In this document: positions 4,517-63,448 of the stretch, piece after piece | Layout of the letters: the number at the start of each line of letters is the position of its first letter | How positions within the stretch are numbered: position 1 is the stretch's first letter | NCBI RefSeq assembly: GCF_041381155.1 | Contig: NC_091142.1 | Coordinates: 35,637,604-35,701,603 of the forward strand | Length of the DNA: 64,000 nt | Origin: Argopecten irradians | Taxonomy: Eukaryota > Mollusca > Bivalvia > Pectinida > Pectinidae | Reading direction: 5' to 3' | Program-made: the position numbers and the translations under genes | Notes under the pieces: generated by a model | Databases searched by the model: none | What the model was told of the DNA's origin: nothing | The model's input: only the letters and a program-made list of their open reading frames with translations

Positions 4517-4598
4517 TGGCAGCGGTGGAATTCGAACCCACGCCTCCGAAGAGACCGGTGCCTTAAACCAGCGCCTTAGACCGCTCGGCCACGCTACC
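4517..4598 (-). tRNA. tRNA-Leu (anticodon AAG), copy 3, diverged
   Basis: Same 82-nt tRNA-Leu(AAG) with two base differences from copies 1 and 2. One turns a T-stem G-C pair into a G-T wobble, the other puts a wobble in the anticodon stem. Both leave the fold intact. A short T4 terminator lies at 4501-4504 (minus strand). Flanks have mostly diverged except for blocks just upstream of the gene (about 4615-4715), so this is an older member of the cluster. Confidence 0.94.
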
Positions 4599-13442: not shown

Positions 13443-33915
<20,473 letters not shown>

Positions 33916-51404: not shown

Positions 51405-52655
51405 TTATACTATAGGCAAAATGTCCGTTTTATATTTGATTTTGATTGGTAGACTATGTATATTGTTTGCATTTCGCCCACAATTCTGCCATATAAAATT
51501 TGCACAGATCCGCTGTAATGGTTTGACAGACTTGGAGAACTCCTGCAGTTTTGTTTTTATCCGTGCGACCTGTGACTTCAGTCTATCTGCATTATTTCTA
51601 CCATGTTCTTTCATGAAGATCTGTAGAGTTTCGTATACGGCTTTTGCAGACATGTGCCGAGATAGATCCAACATGCTATCAATATCCGCCGTCTTGTCGG
51701 GTTGGGGCTTGTGTGAGGGCACCGCTAAGAGACTGACAAAAAGACTGTCGATGAAGACATTGATACAATATTTGCCTTTCACCTTGACGTTTGGATTTGC
51801 GCCTTGTCTGAGAAAGACTTTCAGTACGTCAGCGTCTACTCCGAGCTTGACACTGGATTTTGCGTACTGATGAAGAACAGATCCACTCAAAATGCTTTTC
51901 TGGTCTCCGAGACGACCGATTTGGTGAATATCGGCATCAAAGCGGAAGAGTACGTCAGAACATTCCGTGATGAATTTCACTGCTAATGCTTTAGAATCTA
52001 GGTAGGAAACGTATATTTCTACTGTGTCCAACAAACAATGGAGAGCGCTAGAGAATGCTGGCCTACCCACAAGTGTCTTGTTGCCTTTCTTCTGCATTAC
52101 ATGCTCATGTCGCACCTCGTCAAAGTTGGGATTGGCGTTCGCCTTGAGGAGAAGCTTAAGGCAGGCCAAATAGTACTGTGTGTTGATATAGTCATGGGCA
52201 CACAAGGAATTACGTAGTAACGTATATAGTGGATAAGTGTTGCATGGAGATTTAGTGTTTACGTCATGGCGATATTTAATCAGAACTGACGTCACATCCG
52301 GTAGGCGTCTATAGCCCTCGCGACCAAATCCTTTCAAAGCACTGTTCGTATATAAACAATGGTACAGATTTGTGCCCTTCATAATGTCTTTTGTACTGAC
52401 ACCGGTAGCAAGCAGAGAATCTAGGATTTCAGCTCTAGCCCCACAGATAGCCAATTCGACAGCTTTGGTAATGTCCGATTTGTCGTACTTTTGTGACAAT
52501 AAGAAGTTTACAGCCTTTAACGATCCATCTAAAGTAGCCAGAGAGAGGTATCCACTCTTGGCGTGTTCTGGATGTTCTTTGATAACACACTGGTTTAAAA
52601 TCAGATGGATACATTGCACATGACCTGCAGAGGCAGCGACATCCAAAGGCGTAAC
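51405..52655 (-). CDS. Ankyrin/SOCS gene, coding exon 2
   Basis: 1251 bp from acceptor 'gatgtag' to TAA at 51407-51405. Continues VTPLDVAASAGH, which completes an ankyrin repeat with the exon 1 reading frame, confirming the junction. Holds the remaining repeats and the SOCS-like end. Confidence 0.9.
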   Translation of the reverse strand, partial: VTPLDVAASAGHVQCIHLILNQCVIKEHPEHAKSGYLSLATLDGSLKAVNFLLSQKYDKSDITKAVELAICGARAEILDSLLATGVSTKDIMKGTNLYHCLYTNSALKGFGREGYRRLPDVTSVLIKYRHDVNTKSPCNTYPLYTLLRNSLCAHDYINTQYYLACLKLLLKANANPNFDEVRHEHVMQKKGNKTLVGRPAFSSALHCLLDTVEIYVSYLDSKALAVKFITECSDVLFRFDADIHQIGRLGDQKSILSGSVLHQYAKSSVKLGVDADVLKVFLRQGANPNVKVKGKYCINVFIDSLFVSLLAVPSHKPQPDKTADIDSMLDLSRHMSAKAVYETLQIFMKEHGRNNADRLKSQVARIKTKLQEFSKSVKPLQRICANFIWQNCGRNANNIHSLPIKIKYKTDILPIV

Positions 52656-53596
52656 CTACATCAAACAAAAAAGTATGGGATGATTATCAAGCAGATAAGG
52701 ACAAAATGAATCCTAAATTCTATTTAAAGATTAACATCTACTCGTTATGATTTATTCTTTTATCTATAATTCCACTTTTATTGGTGGACTATTTTCTCTT
52801 ACAAATTATTATACTGCAGTATCAACCACTCATATGCGACGTTGTAAACGGTGACATCATCTCTGTTACATTATGGTCATTTTTAGGCAAATGACAATGC
52901 TTTTTACATAGCCATTGTAAACCAGTGCTGAAAAACTACCCAGCGATCGATAAATCACAATGTTTTACATCTGTGACAATCATCCTACAAACCAAGATCA
53001 AACCCAGGTTGAACATAAACATTATATAGTACTTGTTTTTAAGAAAATGGGTGAAAGAGAAGACTATTGAAGACAAAATTACCAAGTAAAACATTTCTTT
53101 TTTTAATTTGTTTTTGACTTCCTACGCTTTGTCAGAAGTGTTGTATCAGTTATATTTTCTGCATCATAAACAAACTTGATCAAAAGCTTATGTCAAATTA
53201 GTGATAGCCAGTAGACCTTACCTCACTAATGTGTTTGGTTGAACTGAGATCGTCCGGATAAGCCAGTTTTTTAGTCGGTCTGTTGTCGCCAGGACGATGG
53301 GTTAGGAGGAGGTTGATAATAGTTCTGAATCCTAACTGCGCTGCCAGATGAAGATACGGATTCACTTCCGGTTCAAAGGGGCGGACAAAATACCCATGCG
53401 TCAAGAAAAATTCCACCACCTCTGGGTTGTTGGTGAGAATGGCGTGATGTAAGACATCCATTTGTTTGGCGTCCTTCCATTGTATAAACTGATCGCGGTT
53501 ACACATACCCAGCAACACTTTGAGTTTCCCTGCTCCTTCATTCTTCTTCAAGGTGTCCAGGCAGTCTTTTACCACAGAGGTAACGTTGTCTGCCAT
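51405..53596 (-). CDS. Ankyrin-repeat protein with SOCS-box-like end
   Basis: Two coding exons give a 541-aa protein. Ankyrin-like repeats occur at ~46-71 (MDVLHHAILTNNPEVVEFFL), ~79-100 (PYLHLAAQLGFRTIINLLL), ~126-148 (TPLDVAASAGHVQCIHLIL), ~157-178 and further weaker ones, with LLLKANANPN and FLRQGANPNV typical of repeat ends. The last ~40 residues (VKPLQRICANFIWQNCG, then LPIKIKYKTDIL) resemble a SOCS box: PL..lC...I at the elongin-binding part and LPI/LP at the cullin part. The likely role is substrate adaptor of an elongin B/C-cullin-5 ubiquitin ligase, as in ASB proteins. The match is by eye and orthology to a given ASB is not claimed. Confidence 0.85.
53222..53596 (-). CDS. Ankyrin/SOCS gene, coding exon 1
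   Basis: 375 bp from ATG (53596-53594) to donor 'gtaagg' after KHISE, phase 0. Starts MADNVTSVVKDCLDTL. The 5' UTR runs to an acceptor 'tttacag' at 53659, so at least one noncoding exon lies further upstream and was not located. Confidence 0.88.
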
Positions 53597-53658
53597 TATT
53601 CCTGTCGGAGTTCTGTACTACCGACTTCCACTGTGCCGTTTGGAGTTGAGGCCTAGCC
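53597..53658 (-). other. 5' UTR part of ankyrin/SOCS gene
   Basis: 62 bp between a good acceptor (ctcttttacag) and the start codon, with no other ATG in it on the minus strand. This implies an intron in the 5' UTR. Confidence 0.6.
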
Positions 53659-59430: not shown

Positions 59431-62340
59431 GAGATGACAATAATGTTTAATACTAAAGTCTGAAATATGCATTACATAATAAACGTTGGTAAAAACCTTT
59501 ATTTCATGCATTCTGAATGGAAAATGAGACAAAGTGTATGAACCTATACAGCAAAATTCTCGATTTCGTTATTCACTTCTATTTTATGAATGAAATAAAA
59601 CTCCATAAATATATATGTATACCATTGATAGTGAAACATGAATCGCCTCTATTCTAGACGGCAACGAGAATGTTCCATTCGTATCAAAAGGTATTGACCG
59701 CAACATTACTTATATCATAAAGTCAGTGTAAAAGGTTATATGTGCCGTAATTTTCCTACTCATGGGTGAGGAAGGGCTTTTAATGTGTTCCTCACCACCA
59801 AAAGTTAGCAATATTTCGAGAATTACAATTATGCTTGTTAGTCTATTTGAATGATTTTTTACAGCTTAATTCATCATTTTTCAATAGATTACCGAAAAAC
59901 ATTTTCGGAAGTGATGGTAAATATAATTTTAATTGGGGTCAAATTACACTACCAAACTTCGATAATTTCCCATACATATCCTGAACATAATGTCAGTCCT
60001 TTATGACGTAATAATCTACACCGATAACGTGGTAAAGTCGCATTATGTTTTTGACAACAAAAGTGGAAGTTCAAATGGATTTAATAAATATTAACTCACC
60101 TAATGAATTTATCTTCTTTTGGTTTTGGTCAAATTTGCACAGTTTCGAAGAAACAAATGAAAAAAAGAACACGTAAATAAGCTTGACTGTGTCTAAATAT
60201 TTCATGGAAAGTTCGATAAACTACTGTATTTTCCATTAACTGATACTGGGTTTTGTCACAAGGATACCAAATATATTACTTCTAGGTAGAATTTAGACAA
60301 CAATATGGCAAATATTTGAAAACATAATGAAGCATAAATTATTGCACCTAATTCGGACCATTAGGCAATTTGAACCCGCTGAACAATGCCAACCCCAGTT
60401 GTTGTTATACTTTTCCCCGTTGAAAAACATTTCAATACGATTGGGGTAAACTCATCGTAACTCTCAATATTGAGCTAGTACCCCTTATTTCTATATCATG
60501 GCAGTTCGAAAGAGGAGAGGGAATGCTTTATTTCGTGGACAATCAGTCAATTCGGATGGCAATCGAAAGGGATGATATTGACTACTACATTGCTATGTTA
60601 AAATGTTTACATCTATGCCTCCCTGGAGTATCAACGTTTTACGCTAATTATTTCATGATTACAGAGGACTTAAAATCTTGCATGACGTGTTCAAAGCGCC
60701 TGTTTAATTCTAGGTATGATGTAGGGTTATATGAGTTACCTCCCTTTAATAATTTCCCACACGAAGTTTTAGACTGACAGATATTTATAAGTGTCGTGCA
60801 TATTTTTATACAACGCATGGTCTTAGTGACATATTTCAGACACTGAAAGTGAATGATGTAATGATATCAAACCTAATCATGGGTTTACTGCTAGTTTGAC
60901 CAATGAATCACGATTGAGATCATAGTCTATATTTTATCATTTTGGAGGAAAATCTTATCTAACGCAACTTATGTACTAAAGGTTTTGCATCTATCCTGAG
61001 TACCTAAAATTAGACCACACTGTTAAATAAGGAGATAAAGTAGATATCTATTTTTATAAACTCTTTGCTGTATTTCCAACTATTGATTCATATCAGTATC
61101 TATTACAAGTTCTGTACTAAATTTGGTCCATTTGAAATATTGCCAGTTTATTTTTGCTCCAGTTGAGTCAAACTGGACAATAGACCGACTACCAAGGATC
61201 TATTATGATGGTAAACGTTACATAAGCCAACCACAACCAAAACTAGCCAAATTATTCATCGTATTATTGTGGGGATTGAAAACGACCATTTAATGTTTTC
61301 GGTGTGATAAGATGATTTGAGGGATAGTGTATAACCCCTACACGTTATTGGTAGTGTGCCAGCACGCGTTCTGCGTCTTCCGTGACATGTATTATGATGA
61401 TAATTATTTGATAGGTATATGACAGATTAACATGATAACATTAAAATTAAATTCACCGAAAAGTATAGAGTACACGCGTATGTTTAGTAAGTAATGGTAT
61501 AAAGAATAACACTGAAGAAAAATTCAGTTTCATCTTGGGGTTGGATATCGTGAATGGTTGTTAAGTGGCGAATTAAATCTTCAGTGATATGGAAATGAAT
61601 GTTTTATTGAATCTAACAGACAACGTTCTGTTTATCTGTCACACAAATCGCCGTTCATACCAACTATGTTCTATAATTTGGTAACAGTTCATTGCCTAAT
61701 TAGCACAAGTAATCAACTTCCTGTGTTCAAAGATTGAATAATAAATTATTCGAATACTACCTGACCAATTTTGTTTATATGCAAATAAAACTTTTACTGT
61801 GTTTGTCTTTCTACTTCTGAAAATGAAAAGATGTCACCGTGATTGCTTTCGTCGTTTCATTTTCAATACAATCATTATATTATATAAGTATAATATAATG
61901 TTAGTATTGAAAATGAATCACTTTCACAGATACATTTGTCCCGAATACATTGTAATAGCTATTTTTGGCAGAAAATTGAAAACTTAATGCTAAATCAAAT
62001 CTATTGCAGATTTTTATGTAAGCTTATCAACAGATTATAAAATCAATATTGATCATTGATCCTATGGCCAATAGTCACTTCATAGACATGCAGATCTTCA
62101 CTCACTGAGACTCTATTGTACCGTTTCTAATGTAAACAATGCATGTCGAACATGCTACCGTCAAAACAAACTCTGCCCGTATTCTAAAATTATGATAACG
62201 AAATAGGATTTACAGATATACTATGAGCAAGCAGGATATTTAAAAATAATATCTAGGTCATGTTGATATACAAAAGTCACGTGGTTTTGTTTTGAAAATC
62301 CCAGTAGATTAGTATATATCTAATGCGTCGTCAAACGCTG
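59431..62340. other. Intergenic, mostly featureless
   Basis: Holds a remnant of the dispersed repeat (59785-59910: 'ttcctcaccaccaaaag', 'cgagaattaca', 'caatagattaccgaa'). An 84-codon plus-strand ORF at 60523-60777 has no recognisable domain. Otherwise nothing seen. Confidence 0.4.
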
Positions 62341-62375: not shown

Positions 62376-62615
62376 ATGAAATACTCATTGAAGTTCACAA
62401 TGGCTAAAGGATACATGGCACGCTGTGATTCCACTGAAACCTACAAAGTCGGAATATTTCTACGGGAGGTTGGGGACGATTTGTACTTTGATACTTTGAA
62501 GAAACAACTACAAAGGCAGGAGGATCAAAAACTATTAAAAAGACAGACACTTGCCGTGTTAGGGTTCACTGTCATCCACGTCCTGACACAAGTATTGAAA
62601 TACGCCGGGGGATAA
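62376..62615 (+). CDS. Candidate BH3-only apoptosis protein (79 aa)
   Basis: Residues 25-36 read VGIFLREVGDDL, an exact fit to the BH3 consensus (hydrophobic-x3-L-x2-hydrophobic-G-D-x-hydrophobic), followed by a charged helix-like stretch (KKQLQRQEDQKLLKRQ). A hydrophobic tail at 58-74 (TLAVLGFTVIHVLTQVL) ends in KYAGG. Small size, BH3 and C-terminal hydrophobic segment match the plan of BH3-only proteins such as BIK or HRK, which insert in the mitochondrial outer membrane and bind BCL-2 relatives. Met9 (62400) has the better start context (acaATGG) and may be the true start. A donor 'gtaggt' lies four bases after the stop and an acceptor 'ccttgcag' at 63147, so the 3' UTR is probably spliced. 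No close homologue is recalled; function is inferred from the motif. Confidence 0.6.
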   Translation: MKYSLKFTMAKGYMARCDSTETYKVGIFLREVGDDLYFDTLKKQLQRQEDQKLLKRQTLAVLGFTVIHVLTQVLKYAGG

Positions 62616-63147
62616 TGAGGTAGGTTTCTCCTTGTGTTTACACTTAATTTACACTTAGTATTGATAATATATATATTCATGTTTATTATTTTAGTGTTGA
62701 ATAGCACATTAGGATTCCTCTTGCATGATTCGTCGGCATGAACATCGTGACACTTGTGGTTTTAACATGGAGTTTTCCATTACGCTATATTACAGTGGTT
62801 TATCCTACCCCTATATTAATCAATTAAACGATTTAAATTCTTTATAAAATACTTATCATTATAAGTGATAGAACTGTTCTACACTTTCATATTATTTTAT
62901 TTATCTGGCATTAACGTGATGAGTTTATCTTTGCTTGTCAACTTGCTTGCTTCCAAATATAGTATACATATATAGTCGTTATCTTTGGTAAATATATATA
63001 ATGAATTGGGGTTCATTGTGTAGTACATATATTAAAAATTCTTTAAATTACGGGTAATGTTTGAATCGTTACTTCTATTACTTTTACATACAGTATAATT
63101 ATTATCATCGTAAATATAATAAACTTATTTGTAATGTGTCCTTGCAG

Positions 63148-63448
63148 ACTCCCACCAGGCCTGACACACTGACGGAAACAACTCGTACCCAGTCGAGCTG
63201 GAGTCCCTATACAAATCATGTTTGTCTGAAAGGACTTCGTAACCAACCCTAGCTGATCCAGGATCTCGACACATCAGAAAATAATCGAACGTGAAATCGT
63301 GCTTAAAAACATTTAATCAATCTATTGATGAATATGATCTTCTGTCCGTAAATATGCACTGAACTGTAGCACTGTTATACAGCGATGCCCAACATATTTT
63401 TCATGTATGCCTTACATACAAATGGCAATGCTACGGTACGTGAATAAA
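63148..63448 (+). other. Probable 3' UTR exon of the BH3 candidate
   Basis: Starts after 'gtccttgcag' and runs to an AATAAA at 63443-63448. The local base composition is higher in G+C at its start. A second AATAAA lies at 63684-63689. The exon would be noncoding because the stop codon precedes the splice donor at 62619/62620. Confidence 0.4.

Follow-up and report, generated by a model that had tools for sequence, protein, structure and literature searches.

Does the scallop Argopecten irradians, a member of a group in which BH3-only death inducers have been reported as not found, carry such a gene? The question is raised by a 64,000-nucleotide stretch of its genome (C9:35637604-35701603, NCBI RefSeq contig NC_091142.1; hereafter the window, with positions counted from its first base), in which a sequence-only reading had proposed an undescribed BH3-only-like gene. 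The 79-codon open reading frame (ORF) on which that proposal rested lies exactly where it was placed (62376-62615, +) and carries the Bcl-2 homology 3 (BH3) motif VGIFLREVGDDL together with a hydrophobic C-terminal stretch. The accompanying picture of a single gene was incomplete, as the ORF is one of three tandem genes, which probably encode a family of BH3-only proteins antagonising the animal's BCL-2 proteins.

A tandem family of three small genes

An ORF search across the whole genome (846 Mb, 1508 contigs) returned a sole relative of the window ORF (copy 1): copy 2, on the same strand at C9:35705605-35705820, 5.6 kb downstream and just outside the window (E 1.6e-9, 41% identity). With copy 2 as the query, copy 3 was found a further 4.2 kb along (C9:35709793-35709981, same strand, outside the window and 9.8 kb downstream of copy 1). 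This genome-wide match is not significant alone (E 1.43); a profile of copies 1 and 2, run against the 4445 six-frame ORFs in 188 kb around the locus, recovered copy 3 at E 1.6e-7, with the next match at E 1.2. Shuffle z-scores were 26.4 for copies 1 and 2, 5.4 for copies 1 and 3 and 10.1 for copies 2 and 3. All three ORFs are intact and encode proteins of 62-71 amino acids (aa), with an identical MAKGYM N-terminus in copies 1 and 2 and, in the 62-aa copy 3, a start at the equivalent of the M in 'YM'. No fourth copy was detected within the surrounding 188 kb, and a consensus query of the whole genome, in which the best candidates were scored, gave only the three copies below E 3.9; the two extra matches among its five at E up to 10 (E 3.9 and 8.4) contained internal stops and were rejected. 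Viral and prokaryote sequence collections yielded no confirmed relative of the family, and blastn of 5-kb stretches around copies 1 and 2 returned only matches of at most 30 bases, with coding and flanking sequence not separated. On these comparisons the three ORFs are homologous genes, arranged in tandem and diverging.

The alignment of copies 1 and 2 spans 71 codons and needs no gap, and 15 of their 30 identical residues (30/71, 42%) are specified by different codons; codon positions 1, 2 and 3 agree at 43, 48 and 31 of the 71 sites, respectively. The sequence-only reading had suggested a comparison of non-synonymous and synonymous divergence (dN/dS) with other species. Carried out here on the paralogues, it gave 0.49/1.71 (NG86), 0.45/1.71 (LWL85) and 0.56/1.62 (maximum likelihood), a ratio of 0.26-0.35 across the three methods and thus not close to 1, whilst pairs involving copy 3 were saturated (dS undefined or >15). 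The coding sequences of copies 1 and 2 have, on this evidence, been held under purifying selection. At the DNA level (global alignment against shuffles), copies 1 and 2 reached a z-score of 13.7 in the coding part and 4.3 in the 213 bases upstream, with five further flanking blocks between -1.8 and 1.8; the coding part of copy 3 scored 2.7 against copy 1 and 5.8 against copy 2, with all flanking blocks at or below 1.5. The resemblance is thus concentrated in the coding part and, for copies 1 and 2, reaches to some degree into the proximal promoter, which points to an old duplication held by protein constraint. It is near certain that copy 1 is a real protein-coding gene, and the decisive evidence for this is the tandem family, not the match to a motif.

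Conservation and resemblances of the BH3 motif

BH3 motifs follow the pattern hydrophobic-small-x-x-hydrophobic-x-x-hydrophobic-G-D-x-hydrophobic. The description of the window motif as a full BH3 extends to both paralogues, the corresponding segments of copies 1, 2 and 3 being VGIFLREVGDDL, MGQFLQRAGDEI and VGLVFRQAGDKM. All 7 pattern columns (four hydrophobic, two small and the Asp) retain their residue class in all three copies, with P 0.0026 when drawn from the 59 ungapped alignment columns, of which 27 are class-retained, and 0.0025 with matched composition. Between the paralogues, the residue pair G33-D34 of the 79-codon ORF, singled out earlier for a conservation test, is kept in copies 2 and 3, whilst L29, singled out with it, is kept in copy 2 and replaced by F in copy 3.

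A single match to a loose BH3 regular expression is unremarkable: the 4445 six-frame ORFs gave 7 matches, three of which were the family copies, where residue shuffles averaged 3.6. As this is not beyond chance, the loose match was not used as a basis for the interpretation. A strict form, in which GD is required and which was chosen with the ORF already known, occurred in 1 of the 99 ATG-initiated ORFs of at least 50 aa in the window and in none of 100 first-order Markov windows, which average only 64 such ORFs.

In profile searches of the PDB (hmmsearch, 177,635 distinct sequences, E up to 10), the three-sequence profile placed a BH3 peptide, that of Mule/HUWE1 (5c6h), first of 10 matches (E 0.18), and a profile of the 25-residue BH3 segment placed it first of two (E 0.016), whilst the single column-shuffled and reversed control profiles led with a flavodoxin (E 0.21) and a sensor protein (E 0.23). 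The aligned residues of this match are EVGQLLQDMGDDVYQ against KVGIFLREVGDDLYF. HUWE1 is a very large ubiquitin ligase, whereas the BH3 of copy 1 sits in a 71-aa protein.

Within the same genome, the family resembles a BAK-type BH3 exon (QVGRQLARIGDDINRRY; locus L015, 30.3 bits, just below the cut-off of the Bcl-2 profile PF00452), with which the family has a VG..L...GD core in common. Used as a scorer, this BH3 ranked those of copies 1, 2 and 3 at 9, 3 and 20 of 116,303 windows, and shuffle P values against the exon were 0.008, 0.001 and 0.023, respectively. Unlike the BAK of this genome, the family has no Bcl-2 domain: none of the 14 genomic PF00452 matches falls at its locus, no BH1, BH2 or Bcl-2 fold was found, and Pfam matched no domain in any copy. 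At E up to 10, Pfam returned nothing for the copy 1 ORF, the BID profile (PF06393) included.

Gene structure

The start common to copies 1 and 2 is the ninth codon of the ORF, at 62400 (CACAATGG). Since the MAKGYM start is common to both copies, and copy 2 has nothing equivalent to the ATG at 62376, the copy 1 protein is probably 71 aa long; the start context at 62376 is also weaker by eye. The start first assigned lay 8 codons too far upstream. Features of the locus are collected in Table 1; the DNA around the TATA-box-like element is AT-rich.

Table 1. Coordinates of the copy 1 gene (window positions) and of the BID-type gene described below
Feature	Position	Strand	Basis or remark
Copy 1 coding sequence, 71 aa plus stop, BH3-only-like	62400..62615	+	Paralogues; dN/dS about 0.3 against copy 2
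Upstream in-frame ATG plus 7 more codons, probably 5' untranslated region (UTR)	62376..62399	+	No copy 2 counterpart; weaker context
TATA-box-like element (TATATAT)	62313..62319	+	87 bases before the 62400 ATG; copy 2 has TATATAA at -88
BH3 motif VGIFLREVGDDL	62448..62483	+	7/7 pattern positions in 3/3 copies; top PDB profile match is a BH3
C-terminal hydrophobic/amphipathic helix LAVLGFTVIHVLTQVLKY, candidate membrane tail	62550..62603	+	Hydropathy; invariant residues
Putative 3' UTR intron (GTAGGT...TTGCAG)	62620..63147	+	Donor as in copy 2; acceptor chosen by eye
Putative last non-coding exon	63148..63448	+	Sequence; ends at the first internal AATAAA, 63443-63448
BID-type BH3 gene, 73-aa ORF with VADRLRSIGDEM	L049:1504-1725 = C9:40424624-40424845	+	Outside the window

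A spliced 3' UTR had been proposed, and the donor site it calls for is present: the site at 62619/62620 lies 4 nt past the stop, a donor occupies the same spot in copy 2, and one follows 23 nt past the stop of copy 3. The acceptor at 63147/63148 (TTGCAG) is present but fails a crude pyrimidine screen, which selects eight other AG sites for copy 1. As a donor shortly follows the stop in all three copies, an intron in the 3' UTR of copy 1 is plausible. The BH3 lies within one open frame in each copy and, with the donor just after the stop, its exon would be the second-to-last, which is where PMC7022251 places the BH3 of BH3-only genes apart from Bid.

The C-terminal tail and predicted fold

Three residues of the tail, G55, V58 and V61, are invariant across the copies. 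Its best 15-residue Kyte-Doolittle means are 1.92, 1.52 and 2.01 in copies 1, 2 and 3, in each case broken by K, R, H or Q, and the best C-terminal 15 to 18 residues average a hydropathy of 1.4-2.0 with moderate amphipathicity. Of the proposed hydrophobic tail, the conserved hydrophobic stretch holds, whilst its strength as a membrane tail is less clear given these polar and charged interruptions; the helix may anchor the protein in a membrane or lie along one, but is not a clear transmembrane segment. AlphaFold, run from the three sequences, returned one helix over residues 11-69 (predicted local distance difference test, pLDDT, 71.8; predicted template-modelling score, pTM, 0.30), which indicates a helical protein and nothing beyond.

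Candidate BCL-2 partners and a BID-type gene in the same genome

The Bcl-2 profile PF00452 gave 14 exon matches genome-wide at E up to 10, six of them over the cut-off. Two tandem BCL-2/BCL-xL-like genes, L009 and L010, lie 2.9 kb apart (C2:22792908-22796112, -), and each has BH3, NWGR and GGW within a single open frame; a further locus, L011, is MCL-1-like by reading of its sequence. With BCL-2-like exons bearing the groove motif NWGR and an exon bearing a BAK-type BH3 found, both a binding groove and a releasable pore-former are likely present in this genome. An exon fragment of BNIP3 was also detected (26.5 bits, cut-off 26). Two divergent Bcl-2-like exons below the PF00452 cut-off, L019 and L020 (C1:50391446-50391664 and C1:50443306-50443524, -), lie 52 kb apart and have identical translations, and represent either a recent duplication or an assembly duplicate.

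The Pfam BID profile gave a sub-threshold genomic match 4.7 Mb from the window family (C9:40424621-40424776, 22.3 bits, E 0.034). The 73-aa ORF at this site (Table 1) matched the profile at E 4.1e-5 (23.7 bits, cut-off 25) over the BH3 part only, and 23 of its 24 PDB matches at E up to 10 were BID or BCL-xL (best E 0.11). A GTAAGC donor lies shortly past its stop, and the genome search gave no paralogue at E up to 5. This gene can be taken as a positive control, and in itself also qualifies as a candidate BH3-only gene. Homology of the window family to it was considered and found no support for copies 1 and 2 (shuffle P 0.12 and 0.16); copy 3 reached P 0.013, in an alignment that is not in BH3 register. 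The family and the BID-type gene are not evidently homologous.

Interpretation and alternative explanations

The BH3-only-like reading of the locus gains support from paralogue conservation, dN/dS, retention of the BH3 pattern and the PDB profile match. If a family member were switched on, its BH3 helix would enter the hydrophobic groove of pro-survival BCL-2/MCL-1-like proteins, with the BH3 Asp pairing with a groove Arg, and the C-terminal helix would carry the protein to the mitochondrial or endoplasmic reticulum (ER) membrane; BAK/BAX would be freed or activated, leading to outer-membrane permeabilisation and apoptosis. With three diverged copies, the triggers or the BCL-2 targets could differ. 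We infer this killing function.

Vertebrate NOXA/PMAIP1, BIK and HRK are small proteins with one BH3, a short C-terminal hydrophobic or amphipathic segment and no Bcl-2 fold. The family resembles them in being small, with a single BH3, a C-terminal segment and no Bcl-2 fold, and differs in having no Pfam match and three tandem copies. The PMAIP1 (NOXA) profile itself gave one weak match elsewhere in the genome (E 1.9), which has no BH3 and was set aside as chance.

Several observations weigh against an interpretation as BH3-only killers. The PDB profile E-values are weak taken singly, and a single-sequence PDB search gave chance matches only. In copy 3 the key Leu is replaced by F, and K follows GD. 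The tail, although conserved, is of moderate hydrophobicity only, and the AlphaFold prediction, whose other four models reached pLDDT values of only 49.9-56.0, is uninformative on binding. No resemblance was found to the BCL-2 exon of L009 (shuffle P 0.12, 0.51 and 0.27 for copies 1, 2 and 3). As scorers, the BCL2a BH3 ranked copies 1 and 2 at 161 and 314 and a non-BH3 window for copy 3, the BCL2b BH3 ranked the three at 29, 167 and 20, and the MCL-like BH3 put no BH3 window in register; because the BCL-2-like and MCL-1-like BH3s of the genome rank the copies worse, it is the BAK/Mule type of BH3 that the family resembles. Regulatory sites were also wanting, with none of the 13 p53-type sites in the 188 kb lying between -3000 and +1500 of any copy and, in a scan of the + strand, no kB site upstream and two in the cluster downstream of coding parts.

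The alternative that best survives, although we consider it unlikely, is that these are small amphipathic or membrane micropeptides which have another function, perhaps at a mitochondrial or ER membrane, and a first helix that is BH3-like by coincidence. Conservation does extend beyond the BH3: out of 12 columns, C-terminal windows retain 9 and the BH3 window 8, and MAKGYM is identical in copies 1 and 2. In addition, short helices easily fit loose BH3 patterns (3.6 expected per 188 kb). Coincidence accounts poorly, however, for four hydrophobic positions, two small positions and an Asp kept in all three copies, for an unbiased PDB profile search that puts a BH3 peptide first and for the resemblance to the genome's own BAK BH3.

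It is less probable still that the family binds BCL-2 proteins through its BH3 in the service of autophagy or of mitochondrial or ER physiology, or restrains death. The size and layout of small BH3-only killers match the family and count against this explanation, and Pfam recognised no other domain suited to such a function. In its favour, HUWE1/Mule, the best PDB match, is not a small killer but has a BH3-like motif, and PMC7022251 describes Beclin-1 as likewise bearing one. A chance ORF or decaying pseudogene, which the 25 ATG-initiated ORFs of at least 79 aa in the window (some repeat-derived) might suggest, is very hard to credit against three intact homologous ORFs, a dN/dS of about 0.3 and the codon-position pattern of copies 1 and 2 (43, 48 and 31 of 71 identical).

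Within the BH3-only reading, we lean slightly towards a more specific picture, that of a mollusc-lineage trio of fast-diverging killers standing in tandem beside an independent BID-type gene and completing a three-part BCL-2 system (pro-survival, BAX/BAK-like and BH3-only). Local duplication would have produced the array, and a BAK-type BH3 may be its source.

BH3-only genes in molluscs

Three reports, on Pacific oyster, mussel and oysters in general, state that a BH3-only homologue is yet to be identified in molluscs or bivalves (PMC5550854, PMC3634015, PMC8917759); from this absence, the report on Pacific oyster goes on to consider a simpler death network. PMC8998228 describes BH3-only proteins as potentially present in Lophotrochozoa, and the legend of its Figure 5, on potential BH3-only proteins, includes abbreviations for oyster, scallop, limpet and octopus; mollusc candidates may already be shown there. 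Squid Bnip3 is called BH3-only, with Bid reported absent, in PMC9389742. Among the papers listed in literature searches, which cover only full texts under open licence, no title or abstract described such a mollusc gene. The tropomyosin of the present genome fits a mollusc, with exon 1 identical over 38 residues to a molluscan tropomyosin and the other exons 60-93% identical. Copy 1 is likely a BH3-only-type gene in a group where the type was reported not found.

Comparison with C. elegans EGL-1, the schistosome and Hydra BH3-only proteins and Drosophila sayonara, made by description, suggests a common situation in which the short motif is the sole shared feature and discovery came late, through a motif search or a screen (PMC10107002 for sayonara). 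PMC8998228 states that schistosome and nematode BH3-only proteins could not be linked to other branches. If our interpretation is correct, the presence of two unrelated candidates in a single genome would make the mollusc absence of BH3-only genes a problem of detection, and would provide named mollusc genes to test, much as sayonara did for Drosophila (PMC10107002).

Other features of the window

Among the four Pfam-scanned frames of the window, the nearest to the BH3 cluster consists of ankyrin-repeat exons at 51405-53617 (-; Pfam Ank, Ank_2). A protein-kinase exon and a 533-aa Ser/Asp-rich open frame, the latter with no Pfam match at E 0.001, occupy 13443-16371 (-). Three tRNA-Leu(AAG) genes lie at 565-646, 2123-2204 and 4517-4598 (-), the first two of which adjoin the same tandem repeat (778-823 and 2337-2382) and so probably belong to a duplicated segment. 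Between 16847 and 19577, a 27-base repeat occurs about 100 times; it shows strong GC skew and reads as open frames of SLSNLIFTD and LDSESVKIK repeats.
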